A stretch of DNA of 64,000 nt from Sipunculus nudus (lineage: Eukaryota > Annelida > Sipuncula > Golfingiida > Sipunculidae), in contig CM049317.1 of NCBI GenBank assembly GCA_026874595.1, positions 40,324,401 to 40,388,400 on the forward strand, given 5' to 3'. This document shows positions 5,191 through 53,279 of the stretch, in pieces. How positions within the stretch are numbered: the first letter of the stretch is position 1; the number at the start of each line of letters is the position of its first letter. The notes beneath the pieces are model-generated. The model was not told where the DNA came from. It was given only the letters and a program-made list of their open reading frames with translations, and did not search any database. Made by a program: the position numbers and the translations under genes.

Positions 5191-5221
5191 CAGACATACA
5201 GACAGACAAACAGACAAACAG

Positions 5222-5501
5222 ACATACGCAACTGACCAATATGCTTGCCGAAAATCTTTGATTCCGGCAAGCAACAAACATACGGAACTGACCAACATGC
5301 TTGCGAAAATCGAAGATTTCCGGCAAGCAACAGACATACGGGACTGATCAACATGCTTGCGAAAATCGAAGATTTTCGGCAAGCAACAAACATACGCGGG
5401 TGATCAACATGCTTGTGAAAATCGAAGATTTCCGGCAAGCAACAAACATTCAGAACTGACCAACATACTTGCGAAAATCGAAGATTTCCGGCAAGTAATA
5501 A
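5222..5501 (+). repeat. 56-bp palindromic minisatellite, 5 units
   Basis: Units start near 5222, 5278, 5334, 5390 and 5446 with an exact 56-bp period. Each contains 'acatacg..actgaccaacatg' followed by an imperfect hairpin, 'cttgcgaaaatc' gaa 'gatttccggcaag', so every unit can fold into a stem. A (cagaca)n tract (5180-5225) lies immediately upstream. The -strand ORFs of up to 140 codons here are frames of the repeat. Confidence 0.9.
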
Positions 5502-5639
5502 AGTCTGGACTGTGCCTCCAACATGTATGATAATAGACAGGGCCCGGAAAGGCCGTCACGCACCACTGCACACGCCGGCCGCCCACCGTAAGGACCCTGC
5601 TGCCACTTGCGGCGACGGCACGTGACTTCGTGGTTTGGT

Positions 5640-6535: not shown

Positions 6536-6890
6536 TTTAGGGCTTTTTGGTGACCTTGACCTTGACCTTTGACCGATCAAGGCCAAAAACAATAGGCTCA
6601 GTGGATAACCGATTTAACACTTGATGATTAAGTTTCAGAGCGATTACTTCAAAATTGTGGCCTGTAGCACTCGGACAAACCCACAGACAGACAAACAAAC
6701 ATACGGAACTGACCAACATACTTGCGAAAATCGAAGATTTCCGGCAAGTAACAAACAGACAGACAGACAAACAGACATACGCAACTGACCAATATGCTTG
6801 CCGAAATCTTTGATTCCGGCAAGCAACAAACAGACATACGCAACTGACCAACATGCCAAAATGGAAGATTTCCGGCAAACAAAAAACAAG
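6536..6890 (+). repeat. family C copy plus second hairpin array
   Basis: A third family C copy includes tgaccttgaccttgacc (6551-6567) and TGACCTTTGACC (6563-6574). It is followed by cagaca runs and three partial units of the 56-bp palindromic minisatellite (about 6704, 6776 and 6834). The same C-repeat plus cagaca plus palindromic array order occurs at 5037-5501, so the three parts spread as one composite. Confidence 0.75.
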
Positions 6891-8114: not shown

Positions 8115-8477
8115 ATGAGGCGACGATCATCTTCACAAAAGCAAAAATATAGTGAGAAAGCCGGCTCGGACACAGAGTTTGAGTTAGAATCAAGTTTGCA
8201 AATTAGAATCACGGGAAAGGGAGAATGTATACTGTTTTCAAACTCGAGCGGCATATCATCGTACGAACGATCTACGTACGATCTTTGCTTCACACGAGTC
8301 GCGGGTCCGCAGCGATCCCATGGGGGATATAATCCCTGTCCAGTTAAAATATCGACGGACGGCAGGGAATTTTCCGGTCTTATCACGAACGAATGTCCGA
8401 TTGGAAGAATCTGTAGCATGGATAAGCGTGAAAATTTTATGCAGAAGCTGGGCGTCATTTATCCGCCGACAGGTTAG
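8115..8477 (+). CDS. unassigned 120-codon ORF or first exon
   Basis: An ATG ORF of 120 codons that I do not recognise. It opens with a basic Ser/Arg stretch (MRRRSSSQKQK), then an acidic segment, and carries scattered Cys residues (ECILFSNSSG, DLCF, NPCPVK, NECPIGRICS) that could bind metal. Its codon use and GC look more coding-like than the AT-rich flanks. Near the end, ACAG|GTTAGT at about 8467-8476 would be a usable splice donor, so the real coding part may stop there and be spliced onward. No motif ties it to the FEN1-like pseudogene 2 kb downstream, although it could be that element's lost 5' exon. It may equally be a remnant of an unrelated transposon or a chance ORF. Confidence 0.35.
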   Translation: MRRRSSSQKQKYSEKAGSDTEFELESSLQIRITGKGECILFSNSSGISSYERSTYDLCFTRVAGPQRSHGGYNPCPVKISTDGREFSGLITNECPIGRICSMDKRENFMQKLGVIYPPTG

Positions 8478-9165
8478 TTCGGTTGCCAGACCTGAAAATC
8501 AACCCTAACCTTGCACTTTGGCAGAACAATTTTTTTATGATTGCATTTTGTTCTCCAGACTGTTCGGATCCTATATCTACCGGATGACAGCATGGCACCC
8601 TTGGGGCATTTTTATAAACGTTGAAAAAAAGTGTAATCACAGTCAATTCTGTGTAATTTCTGTCGTATCTGAATAGCAATACCTGATGTAATTTGTCCCT
8701 GTATTTAACAAATGCTGTGAAAACTCTGATTACTTTATGTCTGAAAGCAGTAAATGAAGAATGAAGGTACATTAACCATTGCAAGGTTACATGCACGCTT
8801 GAATTCAACAGCATATTTACGGATTCTAAATATTATATGTGCTTTGCAGTAGAAAATTGAAAAGTTCAGCGAGACAAATATAACCATAATAAACAATATG
8901 TTGTTACAGTATTGATAAAATACTGTTTGTGAATATCCTTTACCTTGACACGTAACTGATATCAAAGGCTTGTTAGTGTTCCATCTATAAAAGCAATGAA
9001 GTGAAAAAAACTACATCAGATTGTAGTACTCACAATATGTTTAAGGCAAGTATATCATACCAAAACATCAACGGAATATTTTAAGCAATCCTACACAAGA
9101 GTTACTGTTTTTATTTCTGTCCTTGGTTGTTCCGGCTTTCATGAAATCTTTTGGTTAGTTAATGT
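8478..9165. other. intronic sequence, nothing identified
   Basis: AT-rich sequence without repeats or ORFs that I can support. Confidence 0.35.
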
Positions 9166-9870
9166 TTGAAAACCAGTAAATAAAGTTCTGTTAACAAAAT
9201 TCACTACAATGCTAGACATTCTCATCAACTGTTTTTGTAATGATTTTTAAATGATTCAAGTTACAATAAGTCAATATGGACACAACCTGTTGTATAAAAT
9301 AAGCCCAAAGTGAGACATATTCAAATTACGATTCGTAAACCCAAAGATAAATATTCTTCACCCTGGACGATTGATGTAATCAGAGGCTTTACCGATGTTC
9401 ATTAACAAACCAATATATCCACTAGGAAGCCTCGCAAAACTCCTAATGCATAATTAATACCACTCCCAATTGTAATAAGTAAATCATAACATCATTTTGA
9501 AAACCAGTTAATAGAGTTGCATTAACAAAATTTTCCACAAGGCTACACATTCTCACCAACTGTTTTTGTAATGATTTTTAAATACTTCAAGTTACAATAA
9601 GTCAATATGGAAACAACTTGTATAAAAAAAGCCCAAAGTGAGATATACAAATTATATTTACAATATACAAATATACAATATATTCAAATTACGATTCGTA
9701 AATAAAAAGATAAATATTTTTCACCCTGGACGATCGATGTAATCAGAGGTTTTACTGATGTCTTCTCACAAACCAATATATCCGGAAAAAAGCTCCTGGG
9801 AAACCTCGCAAAAATCCTAATGCGTATAAGTAATATCATCTTTAAACACTCCCAGTTGTAATAAGTTAGT
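9166..9870 (+). repeat. tandem duplication, about 331 bp
   Basis: The segment starting gaaaaccagtaaata (9168) is repeated from 9499 (gaaaaccagttaata). Shared landmarks follow in order: 'ctgtttttgtaatgattttt', 'caagttacaataagtcaata', 'aagcccaaagtgaga', 'caaattacgattcgtaa', 'caccctggacgat' and 'gatgtaatcagagg'. The second copy has an extra 'atatacaatatac' expansion near 9650-9685. Confidence 0.85.
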
Positions 9871-12800
9871 ATGGCAGAGAATCCGTGTTTGTTTCCATTG
9901 TGTATTGGAGGAAAACAACCACTAATAAAAGTGGGTCCTGAGAGAGAATAAGCACAATAATTATTTCCAGTAAACAACGAGGGGATTCGTTGAGAGCCTG
10001 GAACCAAAATTAAGTGAAAACCGCGCCTTAACATTGGAGTGTCATAAATGATGTGTATCATCATACACATCAAAGCAACAAATATCACATGTCCTTATGA
10101 AACGTTTGACCCATACACGTATACAGAGTGAACCACCTCCGAAACGTAGGTAAATTTCAAATTTAAGGAACACTGTTTAATCTGAGGTGACCCTTACTTA
10201 CGACGAGATCCCAACCATCCAAACAGATTGCGTCCGTTTTATCAGTGTCGGACTGTGGACCAAAAGATTGGAGCAGATTTAAAATCCAAACTGTTACGAA
10301 TATGTGATGAACGCAGCGATCAGCTAGCAGATGAGGTCCGAATCCCTTTTTCCGGAGCACCATCCGATTTGCATGCGGCTGATGCTCAATATCACCAGGA
10401 CTGTTATTCACATTTCATGAGTGCAAAAAATATTGTGGTAGCAATCCGTGTCTCAAAAAAGTTCAGAATCTCCAGCAGACATTGCATTTGTTATAGATGA
10501 AAGATGAAAAGTGACTTCACCCATATTTGGACTTCTGTTGAATTGCACAAATTCTCCGGGTCATTTTACTTAGAGCACTCTGAATCAAGCTTGATCACGT
10601 CGAATTCTGGTGAGTAAAGTAGCAGAGTTTTTCCAGTAAGACATTTTGGTGATGAGAATAGATGGCTGTGCAAGTCTCGTAGGGTTAAGAAACTATCTGC
10701 CAGCTAAGATTCGTTTAGAAGAAGCGAATGATAATGATCGCGAAATGTATTTAAATGAGATATGTAAACAATTAAATCTGAATCCAAGTCAATTTCAGAA
10801 AAACTCGATTGCTATGACTTGAACCAGTTTGTTGATTCAAAGGCTGTGGCTAAAACAAGTCCTACCTTGTTTAATATTGTCTCATCACTTGTTTCCAAGG
10901 GCAATCGCACAAAGAAAGCATTGAGTATTGCACAGTCAATACAATATCTGATCACTAAAATCCCAAACCAAATGACTTTGGGTCTAGGTGTCAAAGTTCA
11001 CTACCGTTATTGCTCAGAAGAACTTGTATCATTTCTGTTGGATTGTGGGGTTTCAGTGTCATATGATGAGGTTTTGCGTTTCAGACAGTCAGTGGGAAAA
11101 TATACTAGTGAACAGTTGTTCATGTCAGGACCTATCAAATAAAAAGAATATGTGAGTTCATATAGTGATAACTTCGACCTCAACATATTTTACGCCAGAT
11201 GGGACACGCGAGACTCGTGCCATGGCTATTGAGTTCACTCAGCAACAACGCCATTCAACTGAGAAGCAATATGCAGAGCCTGAAGCCCTTTTAGTCCCAA
11301 GATTAACAAAAGAGGAAGCAAAGAATTTCAAAACACAGAGACTTGCCTTATCCCTATTCACCTCTTTACCGGTCAAAATAGACCCAAACCTCCACATATT
11401 CAAATAATCAAGGGGTTCCCTTCAACTGGAACATCTAACGCAAAGTTTGTCTTTGGCATTCGATCTTAATGTCACGTGGTTGAGATCAGTTGTAACTGAG
11501 AAGAATTTACCACCAGGTCATATGGCTAATTTGGCAAAGCAAACAGGTAGAACAGAGAAAGCCACTGTTATGTTTTTGGGCCACTGCCCGATTCACCTCC
11601 GTCACATCCAGACACAGTGCTATCTACAATATTATATGCTGACCAGTTAATTCAGCATCATGGAACGTCATTCACTCATCTTATTGCTGACATGCAAATG
11701 CATAAAGTAGCAACACAAATCAAATGGTTTGATCCAGAACGCTGGAAGAATTTAGTGGAGGTATGCAAACCCTAATTTTTTTTTTAGGTTGTATCGGAAC
11801 ACTGATGAAAGTAACTGGGCTAGAGGAAATCCTTCGTACCTCATTCAAAGGGGTGCCTAACATGCTAAATGGTAAGGCATGGCCAAAAGCCTTTCGGGGT
11901 TTACGAATGGGTGTTAAAGCCCTGTTGGAGGATGCTGTTAGAAATGGCCATACTTCAACAGACAGCCTTATGGAGTGTTTGGACAAAGCAAGATACACCG
12001 TGACCGGCCATTTATGGAAGGATTGTTTGATAATACCAGTCGTGATTATCCATCTGTTTCTTAGAGCTGAGAGGGAAGCAAACTGGAAGCTGCACCAGTA
12101 CTGTTTGAAGAGAAGGCTTCCCTACTACTTCCCTACTACAGTGGCATACCATTGAAAGTCAGCAGGGCTACAAAAGGATGCGGAGGCTATGCTTTTGAAA
12201 GGAGGTCATATCGGTCGCCGTCGCGATGGAAATTGGAACTCTGTGTTTAGTGACCAGTTTAGGGAACAGACCTTCATTAGATATGGGAAAGCCAAAGGAA
12301 ATTCGGTAGGCTTAACTCTCTCTTCTGACCACGTGGCGGGATGGCTCTGTCATATCATCTGTGCCAAATAGGTTCACTCTCCGTGGACAATATGATTATC
12401 ACCGTCTGATGAAACGGTAATCGTAAAAAGCAAACACAAAGAAGAAGGAAAGTATCAGAGGAAGCTTGACTTTGAAGACAGGAAAAAGATACAAAAAGAG
12501 GTGAAGAAACATACACACCCTTTGAAGGTTCCAACAAACCAGTTGATCAGTATCATAAATGGCAGGATAGCTTCCGAGAAAGGTAATGTTAACATGACAG
12601 ATCGGATGGCAGCCCAGTTTCTCTGCAGATTACATTATGGTTTCTATGAACCAATTCAGAAGAAAGTTATCACAATGGAAACCTTAAAATAAGGAACAAA
12701 GATAGGTGACCAAACAGTTTATGAGATGGAGGATCTGTATGCACGTAGTTTGGTTTTGTCTCAGAAAAGGGAGTTAGGTTTGAAAGAAGTATTTTCTTTT

Positions 12801-13140
12801 GAGCTAGCTCCACTCCAGCTTGCTTTGTTTGACGAGTACGGAGACATGCGTCAAGGGCAGAATTCAACTTTAGTGACAAAATTAGCTAGCTGGTGTGAAA
12901 CATATGACTGACACTGATGTTGAGCTTGTAGACGGGAATGAAATGTTATTTCATACAATGTGGCCTATGAGAGGTATGATTAAGGACCTTGTCAGTAACT
13001 TTGTCAAAACAGTGACAAAGCCCCGTGAGGTGTTTGTTGTATTTGATCATCAATGTGAACTCATCAATGTCATTTGTGTGATGCAAGCTGGATTAAACAC
13101 ATTACACTTGATTAGACAGAAACAGAGCAAATTTGGTCAT

Positions 13141-13414
13141 GAAGAGGCTGACGTAATTCTGTTAAGTTATTTTTTTGATGTGGCTTCTAAGGGAACGGAA
13201 AGGATCACTGTCATAAGTGATGACACTGATATATTTTTTTTCACTGATTTACTACTACTGGAGATATAAGCTAAACTGTGAAGTTGTGATTCGAAAGATG
13301 AATGACAAATACATATCAGTGAAGGCTACAGCTGAAAGTCTCGGGGAAAATGAACTTCCACAAATGCACGCTCTTTCAGGTTGTGATACAGTATCATACC
13401 CCTTTGGAAAGGGC
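13141..13414 (+). other. FEN1/XPG-like PIN nuclease motif block
   Basis: Three acidic motifs occur in the order and approximate spacing of the FEN1/XPG internal domain. GHEEADVILL (EEAD at 13141-13152) corresponds to the EAEA motif. VISDDTDIF (DDTD at 13219-13230) corresponds to the TEDMD strand. HALSGCDTV (GCD at 13379-13387) corresponds to the LLGCDY motif and is followed by PFGKGKLSAVNVL, which resembles the Gly-rich helix-hairpin turn after that motif. The frame shifts by one within the T-run just after DDTD. The equivalence is inferred from motif pattern; no structure or profile was run. Confidence 0.5.
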
Positions 13415-13814
13415 AAACTTTCAGCTGTGAATGTTCTGATGAAAACATGCCACCTTCATCTGGACACAATTGGAGATCTAAAATCCCCTGATGCAATATC
13501 ATAGCAGCAGGAACTGTCTTTTTTGTTACCCTTTACGGCGGAAAGTCTCAAGAATGCACAAATATGAAAAATCTTTGGTATAAACCTATCTCTTCAAAGA
13601 AAAACAGAATCCCTCCAATCAAGACCCTACCACCGACAGATTTGGCAAATCACATTAAACGGGCACACTTGCAGACAATGATTTTGCTTCCTGCAAACAA
13701 GGAACAACCCCCCCCCCCCCCCCAGGTTGACATCACAAAATTTGGCTGGGAATTCCATGACACTGTTCCCTCACCAAAAACAATCAGCCAGCAATATGCC
13801 CTTACCACAGCTTC

Positions 13815-13996
13815 TTAAAGTCGCGGCTTGTGGCTGTAAACAGAGACTCTGTGCTCAAGAAGCAGTTGCAGTTGCAAATGAACCAGAATTTCATGTACAA
13901 CATTTTGCAAGTGTGAATCTGGTGAGAAATGCCAAAATGAACATACCAAGTCAGATGGGAATGAAGATGGAACAGAATCTGATGAAGAGATGTTAA
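13815..13996 (+). other. CXC (tesmin-like) cysteine-rich tail
   Basis: Reading across one frameshift, the stretch begins ACGCK (13826 onward) and continues LCSRSSCSCK, a stop, then SCTTFCKCESGEKCQN. The spacing (CxC, C-x4-C-x-C, C-x3-C-x-C) is like the CXC zinc-binding repeats of tesmin/TSO1 proteins. It ends in an acidic tail near 13960-13996. Upstream sits a poly-Pro run encoded by a C homopolymer (13709-13724). The domain name is inferred from cysteine spacing only. Confidence 0.5.
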
Positions 13997-14316
13997 TTCA
14001 AGCATCTATGCATATTTTCCATGGGTAACAGATTATTCAACCTAAAGTCAGATGTATATGAAACGCATACAGGACCAGACGAAGCATTCAATAGAAATGC
14101 ATCCCTTGTAAGACTCATAGATTCACTATTTTATTAAGTAAACTTCTGCACTGACGAATAAAATAATTTCTTGGAAATACAAAGTAAGATTCAAAAGAAA
14201 ACGATAAGTGATGTAATGAGAATGGAAAACTCATAAATAGTGTTTTAGCTTTCTTATGGTAAACATTACAAGATTTTGTTGTTTCTTAAACGTTTAAACG
14301 TATTTATGGGTAAGTT

Positions 14317-14523
14317 TAAAACCAAAAAAAAAAAAAAAAAAGAAAAAAGGGGAAAAAATAAAATTAACTCTGGACAAACTAGCTGGCCTTGACGTGGCTC
14401 CGGTGCTTGTACGATGAACTTTTCTAATCAAGGGGCTAGTTTTAATGTTACATGCTGCTACAAAAGACAGGAATCTTGGCACTCTGAATGAACTAATTAG
14501 TATTATTATTATCATTTTTATTA

Positions 14524-14556
<33 letters not shown>

Positions 14557-14570
14557 TTATTATTTCAATC
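14317..14570. repeat. A-tract and (ATT)n microsatellite
   Basis: An A-rich run at about 14323-14341 is followed by unremarkable sequence and then an ATT trinucleotide microsatellite from about 14500 to 14566. The A-run lies about 330 bp past the end of the FEN1-like pseudogene. Confidence 0.85.
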
Positions 14571-15348
14571 CACGGATGTAATTTTAAATGTTAATGGATA
14601 TATAATGCTTTGATACATATATTAAAGAGCGACCCACAAGAGCCCACCAACTAATCACCAACTTTCACTCCATGGTTTAACCTCCGGAATTTTAAAAAAA
14701 TACTGTATTTCGGGAAATGACAGCCATTTTGATGGCCATTTTAAATCATAATTATCATTTTTTTATAGTATGTACTCATTTCTGTGACATTTTGTGAAAT
14801 TTTATGTCACGCAGACTGTTTGTTAAAAGTATATTGTAATTAACTTAAATATAGTATTATTTAAAAATAGGCACCGGAGGCCATTTTGAATTGAGCAAAA
14901 AAAAAAAATTGCCCAAGGGTGCTAGCCTGGCACCCGATGGGTTCCGATTCGGGAGCCTTTGGAGAACAAAAATCCGCAATAAAAAATCTTTCCACAGTAG
15001 TACAAGGTTATACGGCTTGGCAACTGGACTATGCGGCGCAAACGTGCAATGGAAATCAGGGAGAAGGCAGGTTCTTGTGCAATGGATAAATAGTTCATCG
15101 TCTAATTCTAAGAGTGGAAAAAAACTACTGCTGTGAATACATACTGAAAATACCATGGTCCGACTTAGCGCTGGCATTGAAAGCACCGGAAGTCCGAATC
15201 CCTGCGCATGAAAATAGTGCCGACAAAGCGGTGGCAAAAATACACCAAGCGATATGTCATGGCCGGATCGAGCAATCAAAGCATGTAGAAACCTCAATCA
15301 AAATACACTACGCGGATCAAATAATTTCACGTATGTATGACGCGCTAA
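14571..15348. other. intronic sequence, nothing identified
   Basis: I see no supported gene. The 146-codon -strand ORF at 14857-15297 has no recognisable motif and appears to be chance. A poly-A run occurs near 14899. Confidence 0.35.
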
Positions 15349-17039: not shown

Positions 17040-18559
17040 CTGAAAGCATATAACAATTCATACATCCAGCCAATAGGTTCAGCCAGTCTACGATGCACAG
17101 CCAATGACATTACAAGAAAGATACATTTTGAAATTGTAGAGGAAGGTCACACGTCTTTATTGTCTGGCAAGGCATGTGAAGCACTGCAGTTAATTAGCTT
17201 CAATCAAGATTGTTTGGTGAACTCTCTCACAAATGCGCTCAACCTCACCAAAGATAAAGTGTTACAAGACTACAAAGATGTCTTCTCAGGACTTGGCAAA
17301 TAGCTGACCTAGAAAAAATGGGAGTGCTCAAAAAAGTTACGGAGCCAACACCATGGATCAACGGCATGGTTGCAGTTAGAAAGCCAAATAAGCTCAGACT
17401 CTGCTTGGGTCCTCAGAATCTTAATAAGGCGATCCAGAGAAACCATTATCCATTACCCACATTTGATGATGTCGCACCACGTCTTGCAAAAGCCAGAATC
17501 TTCTCAGTAGCCGATGCCAAAGATGGCTACTTGCAAGTGTGTCTTGATGAACCATCAAGTTTGCTCAACACATTCTGGACACCATTCGGCCGATACCGAT
17601 GGTTGCGTTTGCCCTTCGGACTGAGCTCATCACCGGAGGAATTCCAAAGACGCCTTGACGAATGTCTTGAAGGTCTTGACAATGTTGAAGTCATCGCTGA
17701 CGATATCATCATATATGGATTAGGGAATACAGAAGCAGAAGCACTCGTCTCTCATGACAAAGCATTTCTAGCTTTATTGGAGCGATGTAGAGACCGAGGA
17801 CTTAAGTTGAACAAACACAAACTCAAGTTCAAACTGAATAATGTTTCCTACATGGGACATATACTGAGTGACAAGGGATTGTCCCCAGATCCAAACAAGG
17901 TACAAGCTGTTCTTGATATGCCTCCCCCAACAGACGCACAAGGAGTTCAGCGACTATTAGGAGTTGTCACATACCTGGCAAAGTTCATGCCACAACTGAG
18001 TTCAGTTTGTGAACCACTACGTCGTCTCGCTGATAAAGACACTGAGTTCAAGTGGTTACCACTCCACACTGAAGCAATGGACAAAATCAAAACACTGATC
18101 ACACAGGCTCCAGTGCTACGTTACTTTGATGTGAATGAAGACGTGACTATAGAATGTGACAGCTCAGATGTTGGCCTAGGAGCAGTTTTAAGGCTAGAGG
18201 GACATCCAATCGCGTATGCATCACGTGCACTAACCAAAACAGAACGCAACTACGCACAAATTGAGAAAGAGTGCCTAGCAATTGTGTATGCAACAGAGAG
18301 ATTCGATCAGTATATACTGGGAAAGAAAGACGTATTGATACAATCAGACCATAAACCCTTGATGGCCATATTCAAGAAGCCAATACTCACAAGCCCGAAA
18401 CGTCTGCAGAGAATGAGACTCAGACTACAGAAATACTCTCTGAAAATTGAGTATAAGCCAGGACCAAAAATGTACATAAGTGACACATTATCAAGAGCGG
18501 CTCTGCCATTGCACAAAGTTGAACCAGACACTCCAGAATATATGATATTCCAACTTTAA
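17040..18559 (+). pseudogene. pol: gypsy element 1 reverse transcriptase and RNase H
   Basis: The protease-RT linker reads in one frame from 17040 (LKAYNNSYIQP) to a stop after DVFSGLGK near 17301. The RT frame then resumes as ADLEKMGVLKKV. The conserved stretch of roughly 30 residues normally between these is missing, so there is an internal deletion at the junction. RT from 17318 is open for 413 codons, with VADAKDGY (first catalytic Asp), FGLSSSPEEFQ and ADDIIIYG (the YxDD-type pair, residues 127-130). RNase H follows with IECDSSDVGLG, EKECLAI and QSDHKPL, so its acidic residues look intact. A TAA at 18557-18559 interrupts the frame, but the integrase continues in the same frame. Confidence 0.92.
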
Positions 18560-19957
18560 GACGAACTGGCACAAACCAACATGGATGATGACGTGTTTGT
18601 TACTGATAACCGTTTGAACAAGATCAAATTAGAAACTAACAGAGACATTACTTTACAAACACTGATGAATACGATCAGCAGCGGTTGGCCTGATGACAAA
18701 TTTGAGGTACCTTTGTGCATACGTGAATACTGGCCGTATAGAGATGAGTTAGCCACTCAGAATGGACTAGTATTTCGAGGAACTAGAATTGTCATACCTA
18801 CAGTAATGAGACGTGATATGATAGCAAGAGCACATGCTTCACATTTAGGTATCCAAAGTACCACAAATACTGCAAGAAATATCATGTATTGGCCGAGAAT
18901 GCATGCAGATCTAACGCAAGCAGTGCAGAGATGTCCTACATGCCAAGAATTCCAACCTGCCTTAGCCAAAGAACCATTGATGACGTACCCCATACCAAAA
19001 ACGCCTTGGCAAGTAGTAGCCAGTGATTGTTTTGAACTGGATGGTCAGAACTACTGTGTATTTGTAGACTTGTACTCTGACTACATTGAAGTTTGTGAGT
19101 TGGATAAAATGTCCAGTGAGTACCTTATAAGCAAAACCAAACCAATATTTGCAAATCATGGAATACCGAATGTGCTGATCTCAGATAATGGACCTAATTG
19201 TGCGTCACAAGAGTTCAGCCTGTTTGCACAAAATTGGGATTTTGCCCACCTAACGTCTAGTCCACATCACAGCAAGTCCAACGGAAAGGCCGAGTCAGCG
19301 GTCAAAATATCTAAAGGACTAATCAAAAAGTCCAAACGCACTAATGGAGATATGTGGAAGGCCATATTGGAATGGAGAAATACGCCAACACCAGGAATGG
19401 ACAGTTCTCCAGTTCAAAGATTAATGTCACGCCGCACCAGATCGTTCTTACCATGCAAAGACACGCTTTATGCCCCCAAAGTGGAACAACAAGTACCACA
19501 GCAAGTTATACAGAGGAGAAAGAAAGCCAAGACCTACTATGATAGAAATGCTCGCCCGTTACCAGAACTTGTAATAGGTCAACCAGTGAGAACTAAAGTA
19601 CAGCCACACGCTAAAAACGCGAATTGGAAAGCGGGAGTTGTAACTGCAAAACTTGCCCCAAGAGGTTACGAAGAAGAAGTTGATGGTCGCAGCTACAGAC
19701 GCAATCGAGTTCATATAAGAGAATCTGTTGATGCAGAAGACCCGTCTAATTACGCGGAGACTCAGCTTACCGGTACAAACAATACAAACACTGAGTCAAA
19801 CACACCAGCTGACCAGCCTGTCGACCCTGATACCTCTGACATGTCCGCCCCTACGCGTAATGAGGAAGTGAACCCCTCATCAGAGATACCCACGAGTGTT
19901 ATAACAAGGTGTGGAAGAGTATCCAAACCGCCTGAGAGATTCAAAGACTATGTATAA
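18560..19957 (+). pseudogene. pol: gypsy element 1 integrase
   Basis: In the same frame as RT and separated from it by one stop codon. From the Met at 18581 it is open for 458 codons. The N-terminal zinc motif is HASHLG (H85, H88) with CPTC (C118, C121). The catalytic core is DD35E: D149 in VASDCFEL, D202 in ISDNGPN and E238 in GKAESAV. The C-terminus ends in RCGRVSKPPERFKDYV, common in Mag-type gypsy elements. It would insert element cDNA into chromosomes. This domain looks intact but lacks an intact upstream frame to express it. Confidence 0.93.
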
Positions 19958-50551: not shown

Positions 50552-52294
50552 TTAACTATCTGGTCTATATCTGTTTGGTGGTTTTACTACTCTCCCATAT
50601 CTTGTTCTCACTACTGAATGTTCCTGCCCATTATCTCTGTTTGTTTGATTTTGTTGGTCTTTGAATGTTACTCTTTTATGGGAAGATTGAGACACGGTTG
50701 TGTGTTGATCTTCACTGACTGTTCTTAATGCCGATCTGTTGCGTCGTAGTGATCCTCCATCTGGTGTAGATACAATGTACGATCGTGGTGCACTTAGAAC
50801 TTTCTGCACCTGGGCAGGGTGTCATGTTTCACTGTTATTGTTGAAAACTCATACATTCTGCCCTTCGTGAAGAGGTGTTGGCTCACGTCTGACATGTTTA
50901 TCATACTGGTCCTTCATCATCTGCCTCTTCTCCTGTTGTCTTTCAAAATGTGTCCCTTGCTTTGATAGCAAAGTGGATATATTACTTGGCAGTGTTGTGT
51001 GAACTTGTCTGCCAAACATGATTTCCGCTTGTGATGGCAAAGTGGAATCAATAGGTGTGGCTCTTAGATGTAATAGAGCTATATCAATATCTTTTCGCTC
51101 TTTTTGGCATTTCTTTATTATCGCTTTAACAGTCTGTACCATCCTTTCGGCCATGCCATTGGCATGTGGATATCGTGGTGATGATGTAACATGACTAATG
51201 TTCCACTTTTGGCACATCTGTTGGAATGGTTGGCCTATAAACTGAGGTCCATTATCTGAGACTATCTCTGTGGGTGCTTCTAAAAGTGCAAATGTTTCTG
51301 ATGTTAATTTTGCAATAGCATGACTAGTGGTACTAGTAAGCTTGTAGACAAGTGGATATTTTGAATGATAGTCTGTGATCAACAAGTATGATATGTTGTC
51401 TATTTCAAAAATATCAGTACCAAGCTTTGTCCATAGGGTGGTAGGTATCTCATGGGGTATTAGAGGTTCTTTTTCCTGTTTTGGGTCCTTGCTTCTACAT
51501 GTGGCACATTTACTGATCAGTGTCTGTATGTGATCATTTATATTTGGCCAATACACGGACTCTCTCGCAAGGCGTCTTGTTTTCTCTACTCCCATATGGG
51601 AAGCATGCAGCTGGTGCAGGATATCATCCTGGAGTGTTTTGGGGGTAAGGATTTGGCGACCTTTAAATATCACACCTTGTGATAATCCTATTTCATCCCG
51701 GTATGACCAGTACTGTCTGAGTTTTTCAGGAACTTCTTTTATTGTTTCTGGCCATCCATGCGTTATTAGGTGCGTCAAGGTACTTAGTACAGGGTCATTC
51801 TTTGATTCTTCTTTCAGTGCCTCTTGTTTAGCACTACCAAAATTGATCAAGTCGAAATGAGTGTCAATATCGCTACAGTAGATGCCATCCACTCGAAGGT
51901 CATGTGGAACTTCGTCATTTTTGTCTGGATTTGGTAAGCGACTAAGGGTATCTGACAAAACCATGTTGCTCCCAGGCTTATATTCTAGATTGAAGTTATA
52001 TCCTTGGATTTTGATCAGTAACCTTTGTAGCCTTGGTGGAGCGCTGGTCAAGGGTTTGTCCCATATTATCAGTAATGGTTTGTGGTCGGTCTGGACTGTG
52101 AAGCTCTGACCATACAGATAGGTGTGAAATCTGGTGATGCCAAGAACTAGAGCTAGGGTCTCTCTTTCTATGTTAGAATAATTGCTTTGTGTGACTGAGA
52201 GGCTTTTGGACGCAAATGCTACAGGTTTGTTGTTTTGGAGTAAACATGCTACCAATCCTTTCTGAGAGGCATCAACTTCTAATGTAGTTGGCAA
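50552..52294 (-). pseudogene. pol: gypsy element 2 RNase H, integrase and C-terminus
   Basis: Open for 481 codons on - from 52294 to 50849. RNase H starts in LEVDASQKGLVACLL with IERETLALV and VQTDHKPL. Integrase has HASHMG with CATC as the zinc motif, then DD35E: D294 in LGTDIFEID, D347 in VSDNGPQ and E383 in MAERMV. A frame break near 50849-50815 separates the C-terminal tail (50809-50552), which ends RTRYGRVVKPPNRYRPDS. The catalytic residues of both domains look intact. Confidence 0.92.
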
Positions 52295-52295
52295 T

Positions 52296-53279
52296 TCGGG
52301 GTGACATTAACCCAAGAAACCTCTGTAAATCATCTTTGTCCTGAGGTGTTGGCATGGCTTGTATGTCTTCAACTTTCTTCTCGTCTGGTTTTATGCCTTC
52401 ATTGGAGTATACAGATCCAAAGAAACTGATCTTGTTTGACTTGATGGTGCATTTGCTGCTATTGAAGACTAATCCTTCATTTCTTGCTGTTTCTAACAGT
52501 CTGATGAGGTTCTGGTCATGTTCCTCTTCTGTTTCGCCAAATACAGCTACGTCATCTGCTATTCCGACACATCCTGGTACCTGTTCTAGGATATTGTCCA
52601 TTCTTTGTTGGAAAATGTCTTGGCTAACTGATAATCCGAATGGTAATCTGGTAAAACACATTCGCCCAAATGGTGTACGGAAAGTTGTCAGTTCTTGCGA
52701 TTCTTCTGCAAGATGAACAGACCAATATCCGGTTTTAGCATCAAGTTTAGAGAAAAATTGTGCTTTTGAGAATGCTGGATTTAGCTCTTCTAGTGTAGGA
52801 ATTTTATGCGGGCATCGCTTCAGGTTTTGATTCAGCCTTTAAGGGTCTAGACATATCCTTAAGGAGCCATCTTTCTTTATGCTGATAGCAAGTGAGTTGC
52901 ACCAGTCTGTGTGTCCAGTGACCTTTCTGATGACACCTTGTTCTTCCATATGCTGGAGTTCTTCTTGCAGTTTTGATTTTATGTGAATGCTACACTTGTG
53001 TGGTGGATCGATTGATGGTCTGGCATCCTCTTTTAGATGTAATTTAGCTGGCTTTTTGAAGTTTCCAATGTTGTCAAACTGGTCTGGGTATAAAGCTTTC
53101 AGGTCTTGAACTGATCTTATCTTAGGTACAGTGATGGTTTCTGGTATTGTGGTACTGCTCAGATGTTTGGTCTCAATAGCATGGATCGTTACAACATCAA
53201 ACTGTTCACAGGCAGGTAATCCTAAGACTGCTGGTCCAGGAACATCAACAACAAAGAATTTCTGTTTTGAACATTCAGA
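52296..53279 (-). pseudogene. pol: gypsy element 2 reverse transcriptase
   Basis: On -: LQHMEEQGVIRKVTGHTDW, then ISIKKDGSLRICLDP followed by a TAA (52841-52839), RLNQNLKRCPHK, SKLDAKTGYWSVHL (first Asp), FRTPFGRMCFTRLPFGLS, and GIADDVAVFG (catalytic pair). It ends in QRFLGLMS and then jumps with a frameshift directly to the RNase H segment PTTLEVDAS. The thumb/connection of about 65 residues is deleted at about 52296-52310. Confidence 0.9.

Follow-up and report, generated by a model that had tools for sequence, protein, structure and literature searches.

The window (the whole 64-kb stretch of DNA analysed here) carries on its plus strand the broken remains of a large protein, in which the initial annotation recognised a FEN1/XPG-like nuclease core. 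The question raised by this locus is whether such a nuclease belongs to a mobile element or to a host gene family and, in the first case, to which kind of element. With a probability of roughly 0.7, the remains are those of a dead Academ-type transposon, a DNA element of the cut-and-paste kind, from the superfamily's nuclease branch AcademX, known here by description. The nuclease of AcademX is of the XPG type. This is mainly the identification of an already known kind of element; a set of large multicopy proteins of the genome is thereby accounted for, and the element is now defined by its exact ends, a nuclease profile, and a duplication of 3 bp.

The decayed element of the window

The coding relic is delineated by comparison with a relative located at C11:50.49 Mb. 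Using tblastn against the window, the 749-aa and 675-aa open frames of this relative match ordered pieces at 10031-12083 (E 7.5e-86) and 12168-13989 (E 7.4e-76), and since both frames match in order and with such values, the relic is not a product of chance. What is left of the protein-coding sequence of the transposon extends over 10031..13989 on the plus strand, where it is scattered across all three frames, stops included. The copy is dead, as proposed from the start.

As read from the sequence, the protein is a single long chain with four parts, all on the plus strand and in an established order: a Cys/His part at the N-terminus, a middle resembling a transposase, a C-terminal nuclease predicted to be of the FEN1/EXO1 5' type, and a CXC-like tail. 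The Cys/His part (10186..10497) is putatively zinc-binding by its look, and is similar in the relatives. The middle part (11551..12368), delimited from the sequence and the relatives' alignment, harbors the motifs ADMQ, GGMQ (GxxH in relatives), and SDQFREQ. The FEN-like nuclease is split in two halves. The first one (12886..13266), supported by the sequence, the relatives' alignment, and hhalign, displays VDG (12928-12936), FD (13042-13047), EEAD within HEEAD (13141-13152), and SDDTD (13216-13230). The second one (13217..13501), supported by the sequence, the relatives, and a PDB profile match, displays GCD within SGCD (13379-13387) followed by the GKGK turn (13406-13417). The motifs reported initially do exist on this strand, divided between frames. 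The cysteine-rich tail, recognised in the sequence and in relatives, occupies two frames at about 13811..13950. A Pfam scan of the window pieces yielded nothing up to any family's cut-off, and Rfam gave no match at gathering scores.

The interval 10201..13996 initially assigned to the protein family has to be extended, as the ends of the element, at 8475 and 15031, fall outside it. The whole decayed transposon (8475..15031, plus strand) has a terminal motif at either end, the two being inverted relative to each other. Its left terminal inverted repeat (8475..8620, plus strand, inner limit approximate) is decayed, begins with TAGTTCGGTTGCCAG, and is recognised by alignment with the right end. 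The right one (14880..15031, minus strand, inner limit approximate), reading TAGTCCAGTTGCCA on the minus strand, matches the terminal inverted repeat of subfamily A (see below). The left-end region aligns with the right end with a score of 95, against 57 for the best of 200 letter shuffles, and the subfamily A repeat aligns with the right end with a score of 58, against 39 for the best of 200; the same repeat scores 36 with the left end alone, below the shuffle best of 47. The right end departs by 2 mismatches from the 15-base terminus of subfamily A. With up to 3 mismatches, this terminus occurs only twice in the 64-kb window, at 8475 (plus) and 15017-15031 (minus), the two sites facing each other around the relic. 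A count of two is not significant by itself, being reached in 30 of 100 shuffles; as the number of matches alone could be due to chance, the evidence for the ends resides in their position and orientation. The facing termini, together with the alignment of the two ends with each other and of the right end with the subfamily A repeat, give a length of 6557 bp, to be compared with 7043 and 6378 bp for two relatives.

Inside the left end, two subterminal direct copies of 316 and 371 bp, 74% identical, are found at 9165..9866 (plus strand), the place occupied by 163-bp subterminal repeats in subfamily A. No inverted copy of them was found at the right end. The flanks of the window copy show no matching target duplication (GGT vs TGC), which may fit an old copy.

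Elsewhere in the window, retroelements that look Gypsy-like and still have long open frames lie at 17318-19957 (plus) and 50849-52661 (minus); they encode reverse transcriptase, RNase H, and integrase domains. Tandem repeats of 56 and 76 bp sharing a common unit are present at 5217-5502 and 6675-6836.

Relatives in the genome and their mobility

The genome searched comprises 1,426,538,692 bases in 153 contigs; its size and content point to a eukaryote, probably an animal. A 140-aa piece of the middle part retrieved at least 104 rows at E<=1 and at least 49 at E<=0.001, the piece with GCD at least 57 and at least 15 rows at the same thresholds, and the piece with SDDTD at least 3 rows, self included in each case; these counts are lower bounds, and one locus may yield two rows. 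The term "multicopy" used at the outset therefore holds for the element's own genome, on the counts for the middle and GCD pieces. Many of the relatives' rows fall in frames several hundred codons long. They belong to several divergent subfamilies within this one genome, displaying 26-30% identity to subfamily A across the nuclease. Searched with two pieces of the window (24 and 4 matches to the pattern) or with the alignment (5), viral contigs yielded no relatives; none was detected either in a prokaryote collection of 84,980 genomes (13 pattern matches) or, using the GCD piece, in phages.

The spacing of some copies is regular. A related coding copy is found in a head-to-tail tandem array at C9:70958001-70967000, with a unit of ~5.48 kb that is 99% identical over 3.5 kb. 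Rows of the middle piece are evenly spaced by 9790 bp at C9:36.15-36.17 Mb (weak rows, E 0.44), and spaced by 24.8 and 49.6 kb at C12:36.16-36.23 Mb.

Elements of subfamilies A and D are bounded by inverted repeats starting with TAGTC. In the subfamily A copies on C13 and C11 (7043 and 6378 bp, respectively), these repeats begin with TAGTCGAGTTG and are accompanied by the 163-bp subterminal repeats; subfamily D copies begin with TAGTCCAGCAG. An exact 3-bp target duplication (CTA, TTT, TAA, TAC, AAG, or ATA) flanks six of the seven elements of these two subfamilies read at both ends, the seventh, A11, having ATA vs ACA. When flanks were paired across elements, a 3-bp match occurred once in 42 pairs, and duplications of 4 to 10 bp matched in none of the seven. 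For one copy, an empty site was identified: an uninterrupted version of the repeat it interrupts lies nearby in opposite orientation, and is identical to the joined flanks at 55 of 57 bases. Subfamilies A and D are mobile, as demonstrated by their terminal inverted repeats, the 3-bp duplication, and this empty site. The link to a mobile element, raised by the initial annotation, is thereby supported, and the shared terminal repeats for which it proposed to look are present around coding relatives of these two subfamilies.

The analysis of ends covered subfamilies A, D, and E. Searching the genome with a 127-bp terminus, with 40 of 407 candidates scored, recovered all five of the coding subfamily A copies identified in this analysis by the left end and four of them by the right end. 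Eight other places with this terminus were read: four are ~3.5-kb elements with inverted flanks and without duplication, and four could not be completed. The first four (C4, C7, C5:88.8 Mb, and C10) were excluded from the duplication count, their flanks being themselves inverted repeats. Also excluded were C14, C12, C1:56.6 Mb, and C5:43.8 Mb, places that lacked either a cleanly defined first end or a recognisable second one, as well as A13b (right end unread), the subfamily D copy on C9 (left end not found), and subfamily E (ends unclear). The ~3.5-kb elements with subfamily A ends lie at C4:27.699, C7:44.355, C5:88.823, and C10:27.144 Mb. They are flanked by inverted ATAC[GA]AGCAT[TG]T, and their true ends may thus lie further out.

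The middle part and probable membership in Academ

Comparison with Pfam links the middle part of some subfamilies to DUF6589. Two copies of subfamily B match this family with E-values of 7.8e-5 and 3.1e-4, and one copy of subfamily D with 0.0064, all under the Pfam cut-off; no DUF6589 was found in the scanned members of subfamilies A, E, and F. Using hhalign, the family's middle aligned weakly with DUF6589 rows (1.1%, E 0.048; control 0.1%, E 0.75). In the alignment of the middle part, a D, the GxxH, and the DxxxE are invariant in all four rows, and the only match of this alignment to the PDB is a weak one, to a designed protein. Literature on Academ would make the middle part a DDE/RNase-H-like catalyst, Academ being listed among the superfamilies with a DDD/E transposase in PMC9587614.

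DUF6589 proper is represented by 26 rows in the same genome. Three of these places were read (C3, C2, and C10), and each of them has a RecQ-like helicase ORF near DUF6589, on the other strand. Pfam confirms the helicase at two of them (Helicase_C, 8e-13; RecQ_Zn_bind, 1.7e-9); the third was recognised by eye, with no Pfam match. A RecQ helicase has been reported in Academ (PMC3627910), and the three loci look AcademH-like by their sequence. This vicinity of DUF6589 and helicase suggests that the family recorded in Pfam as DUF6589 is a transposase of Academ elements.

The superfamily is described as having two branches in PMC10045372: AcademH, with target duplications of 9 or 10 bp, and AcademX, with 3 or 4 bp, these lengths being linked to the encoded helicase and nuclease, respectively. 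As to the AcademX traits, the short duplication is present in the relatives (3 bp, six of seven elements) and absent at the window copy, and the nuclease is present in the family as judged by homology. Membership in Academ is probable rather than proven, because the profile comparison of the middle part is weak and the DUF6589 matches are below cut-off.

The most serious competitor is a separate superfamily of transposons with terminal inverted repeats, near Academ but outside it, and also endowed with a FEN-like nuclease. It would agree with the weak and partial similarity to DUF6589, with the divergence of the subfamilies in this one genome (26-30% identical to A over the nuclease), and with the fact that Academ was compared by description, not through a reference sequence. 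It is nevertheless unlikely, as a nuclease combined with a 3-bp duplication is what the literature describes for AcademX (PMC10045372). A bolder proposal, quite unlikely, is that of a superfamily distinct from Academ in which the FEN1-type nuclease would belong to the transposase itself as its second catalytic centre, with the task of cleaving the 5' strand at the element's ends. Such a "two-nuclease transposase", if true, would render end processing independent of the host flap nucleases. The assignment to AcademX is retained in what follows.

The nuclease and its known counterparts

The active-site acids of FEN1 follow the order D, D, E-x-D, D-x-D, D. The C-terminal alignment of the present family contains 14 rows from several subfamilies, nine of which form the trimmed nuclease set. 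In all nine, the D-G, D-x-Y, K, N-K, D of EAD, D-T-D, H-A, G-C-D, and G-K are invariant; the E of EAD is an E in seven rows and a D in two. The family therefore matches the FEN1/XPG order with every Asp invariant, and the window copy, in spite of its decay, retains all acids of the series.

When the profile of the nine relatives was compared with 177,635 PDB sequences, Exonuclease 1 came first, with a whole-sequence E-value of 0.0028; the matched entries are presumably those of the human enzyme. This match falls into a pair of collinear segments, one K/R-rich and located after FD, the other comprising GCD with a GIG turn; neither is significant when taken singly (i-E 15 and 2.9). The Asp of GCD is exactly aligned with that of Exonuclease 1. 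The untrimmed profile again ranked Exonuclease 1 first (E 0.13). Using hhalign against the 5' nuclease domains of E. coli PolI and YgdG and of phage T5 D15, a probability of 91.7% was obtained (E 7.8e-7, 200 columns), with VDG, FD, EAD, DTD (vs DKD), and the GIGK turn in register and the Asp of GCD offset by one column from that of the bacterial MGD; the control with the window's own reverse transcriptases gave 0.5% (E 0.12). Two single window pieces returned nothing meaningful from the PDB. The FEN1/XPG active-site order that the initial annotation had put forward is borne out by the nine-row alignment, the rank of Exonuclease 1, and the hhalign result. The conserved acids and the homology thus support a relationship to EXO1/FEN1-type 5' nucleases at the level of sequence.

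Pfam scans leave some room for another PIN-like or NYN domain, for instance an RNA-cutting one, outside of the FEN1/XPG branch. None of the Pfam XPG families was matched by the window pieces or the members scanned, and no nuclease family was reached up to cut-off by single members, NYN_YacP (0.0017) and PIN_4 (0.049) each appearing in one of nine members; the same list also holds unrelated names, e.g., LacAB_rpiB (0.00064). YacP, VPA0982, and PIN_4 are found as weaker matches. The first rank of Exonuclease 1 makes such a domain improbable, as does the alignment with this enzyme of the K/R stretch that follows FD and of the GCD with its G-x-G turn. The long open frames and the head-to-tail array would agree with multicopy host genes serving repair or defence rather than with a transposon. 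This reading is very improbable overall, and it is refuted for subfamilies A and D by their common terminal inverted repeats, the 3-bp duplication in six of seven elements, the empty site, and the occurrence of the ends at more places than the coding copies. Nothing observed points to genome defence, the other setting named by the initial annotation.

The tail had been likened to the tesmin CXC cluster. Its cysteines recur in those relatives' rows that reach that far; the tesmin likeness itself is less firm, the Pfam TCR family being matched weakly in only two of 14 members (best E 0.045).

Within the AcademX-type transposon, the middle part would cut the ends of the element and join them to the target with a stagger of 3 bp. 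The FEN-like domain may remove the 5' strand or a flap at these ends, before or after joining, and would serve as a second-strand cutter beside the transposase, and the CXC tail may bind DNA. The long open frames and the defined ends of the relatives make the role of a FEN-like nuclease within a transposon protein testable.

FEN1, EXO1, and XPG 5' nucleases share with the family the order of the acids, the K/R stretch after FD, and the GCD with its G-x-G turn. Unlike these enzymes, the nuclease described here forms the C-terminal region of a large protein encoded by a transposon, and is followed by a CXC-like tail. Kolobok transposons have TTAA as their target. KolobokE, KolobokD, and KolobokP also combine a transposase with an accessory nuclease, but of other types, namely lambda-exonuclease-like, DEDDh, and His-Me finger, according to PMC9587614. 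AcademH differs by its helicase. At the three AcademH-like loci of this same genome, DUF6589 is paired with a RecQ-like one, whereas in the present family the match to DUF6589 is weak (subfamilies B and D) and Pfam scans of its pieces matched no helicase; the duplication of AcademH is also longer, reported as 9-10 bp (PMC10045372) against 3 bp here. Among the papers searched, none names Academ together with XPG, and none names DUF6589. The novelty initially expected of a nuclease tied to a mobile element is not borne out, as AcademX has already been described with a nuclease and 3-4 bp duplications (PMC10045372). By this description, rather than by sequence, AcademX is the closest likeness of the present family: a DNA transposon that encodes a nuclease and makes a short target duplication, of 3 bp here.
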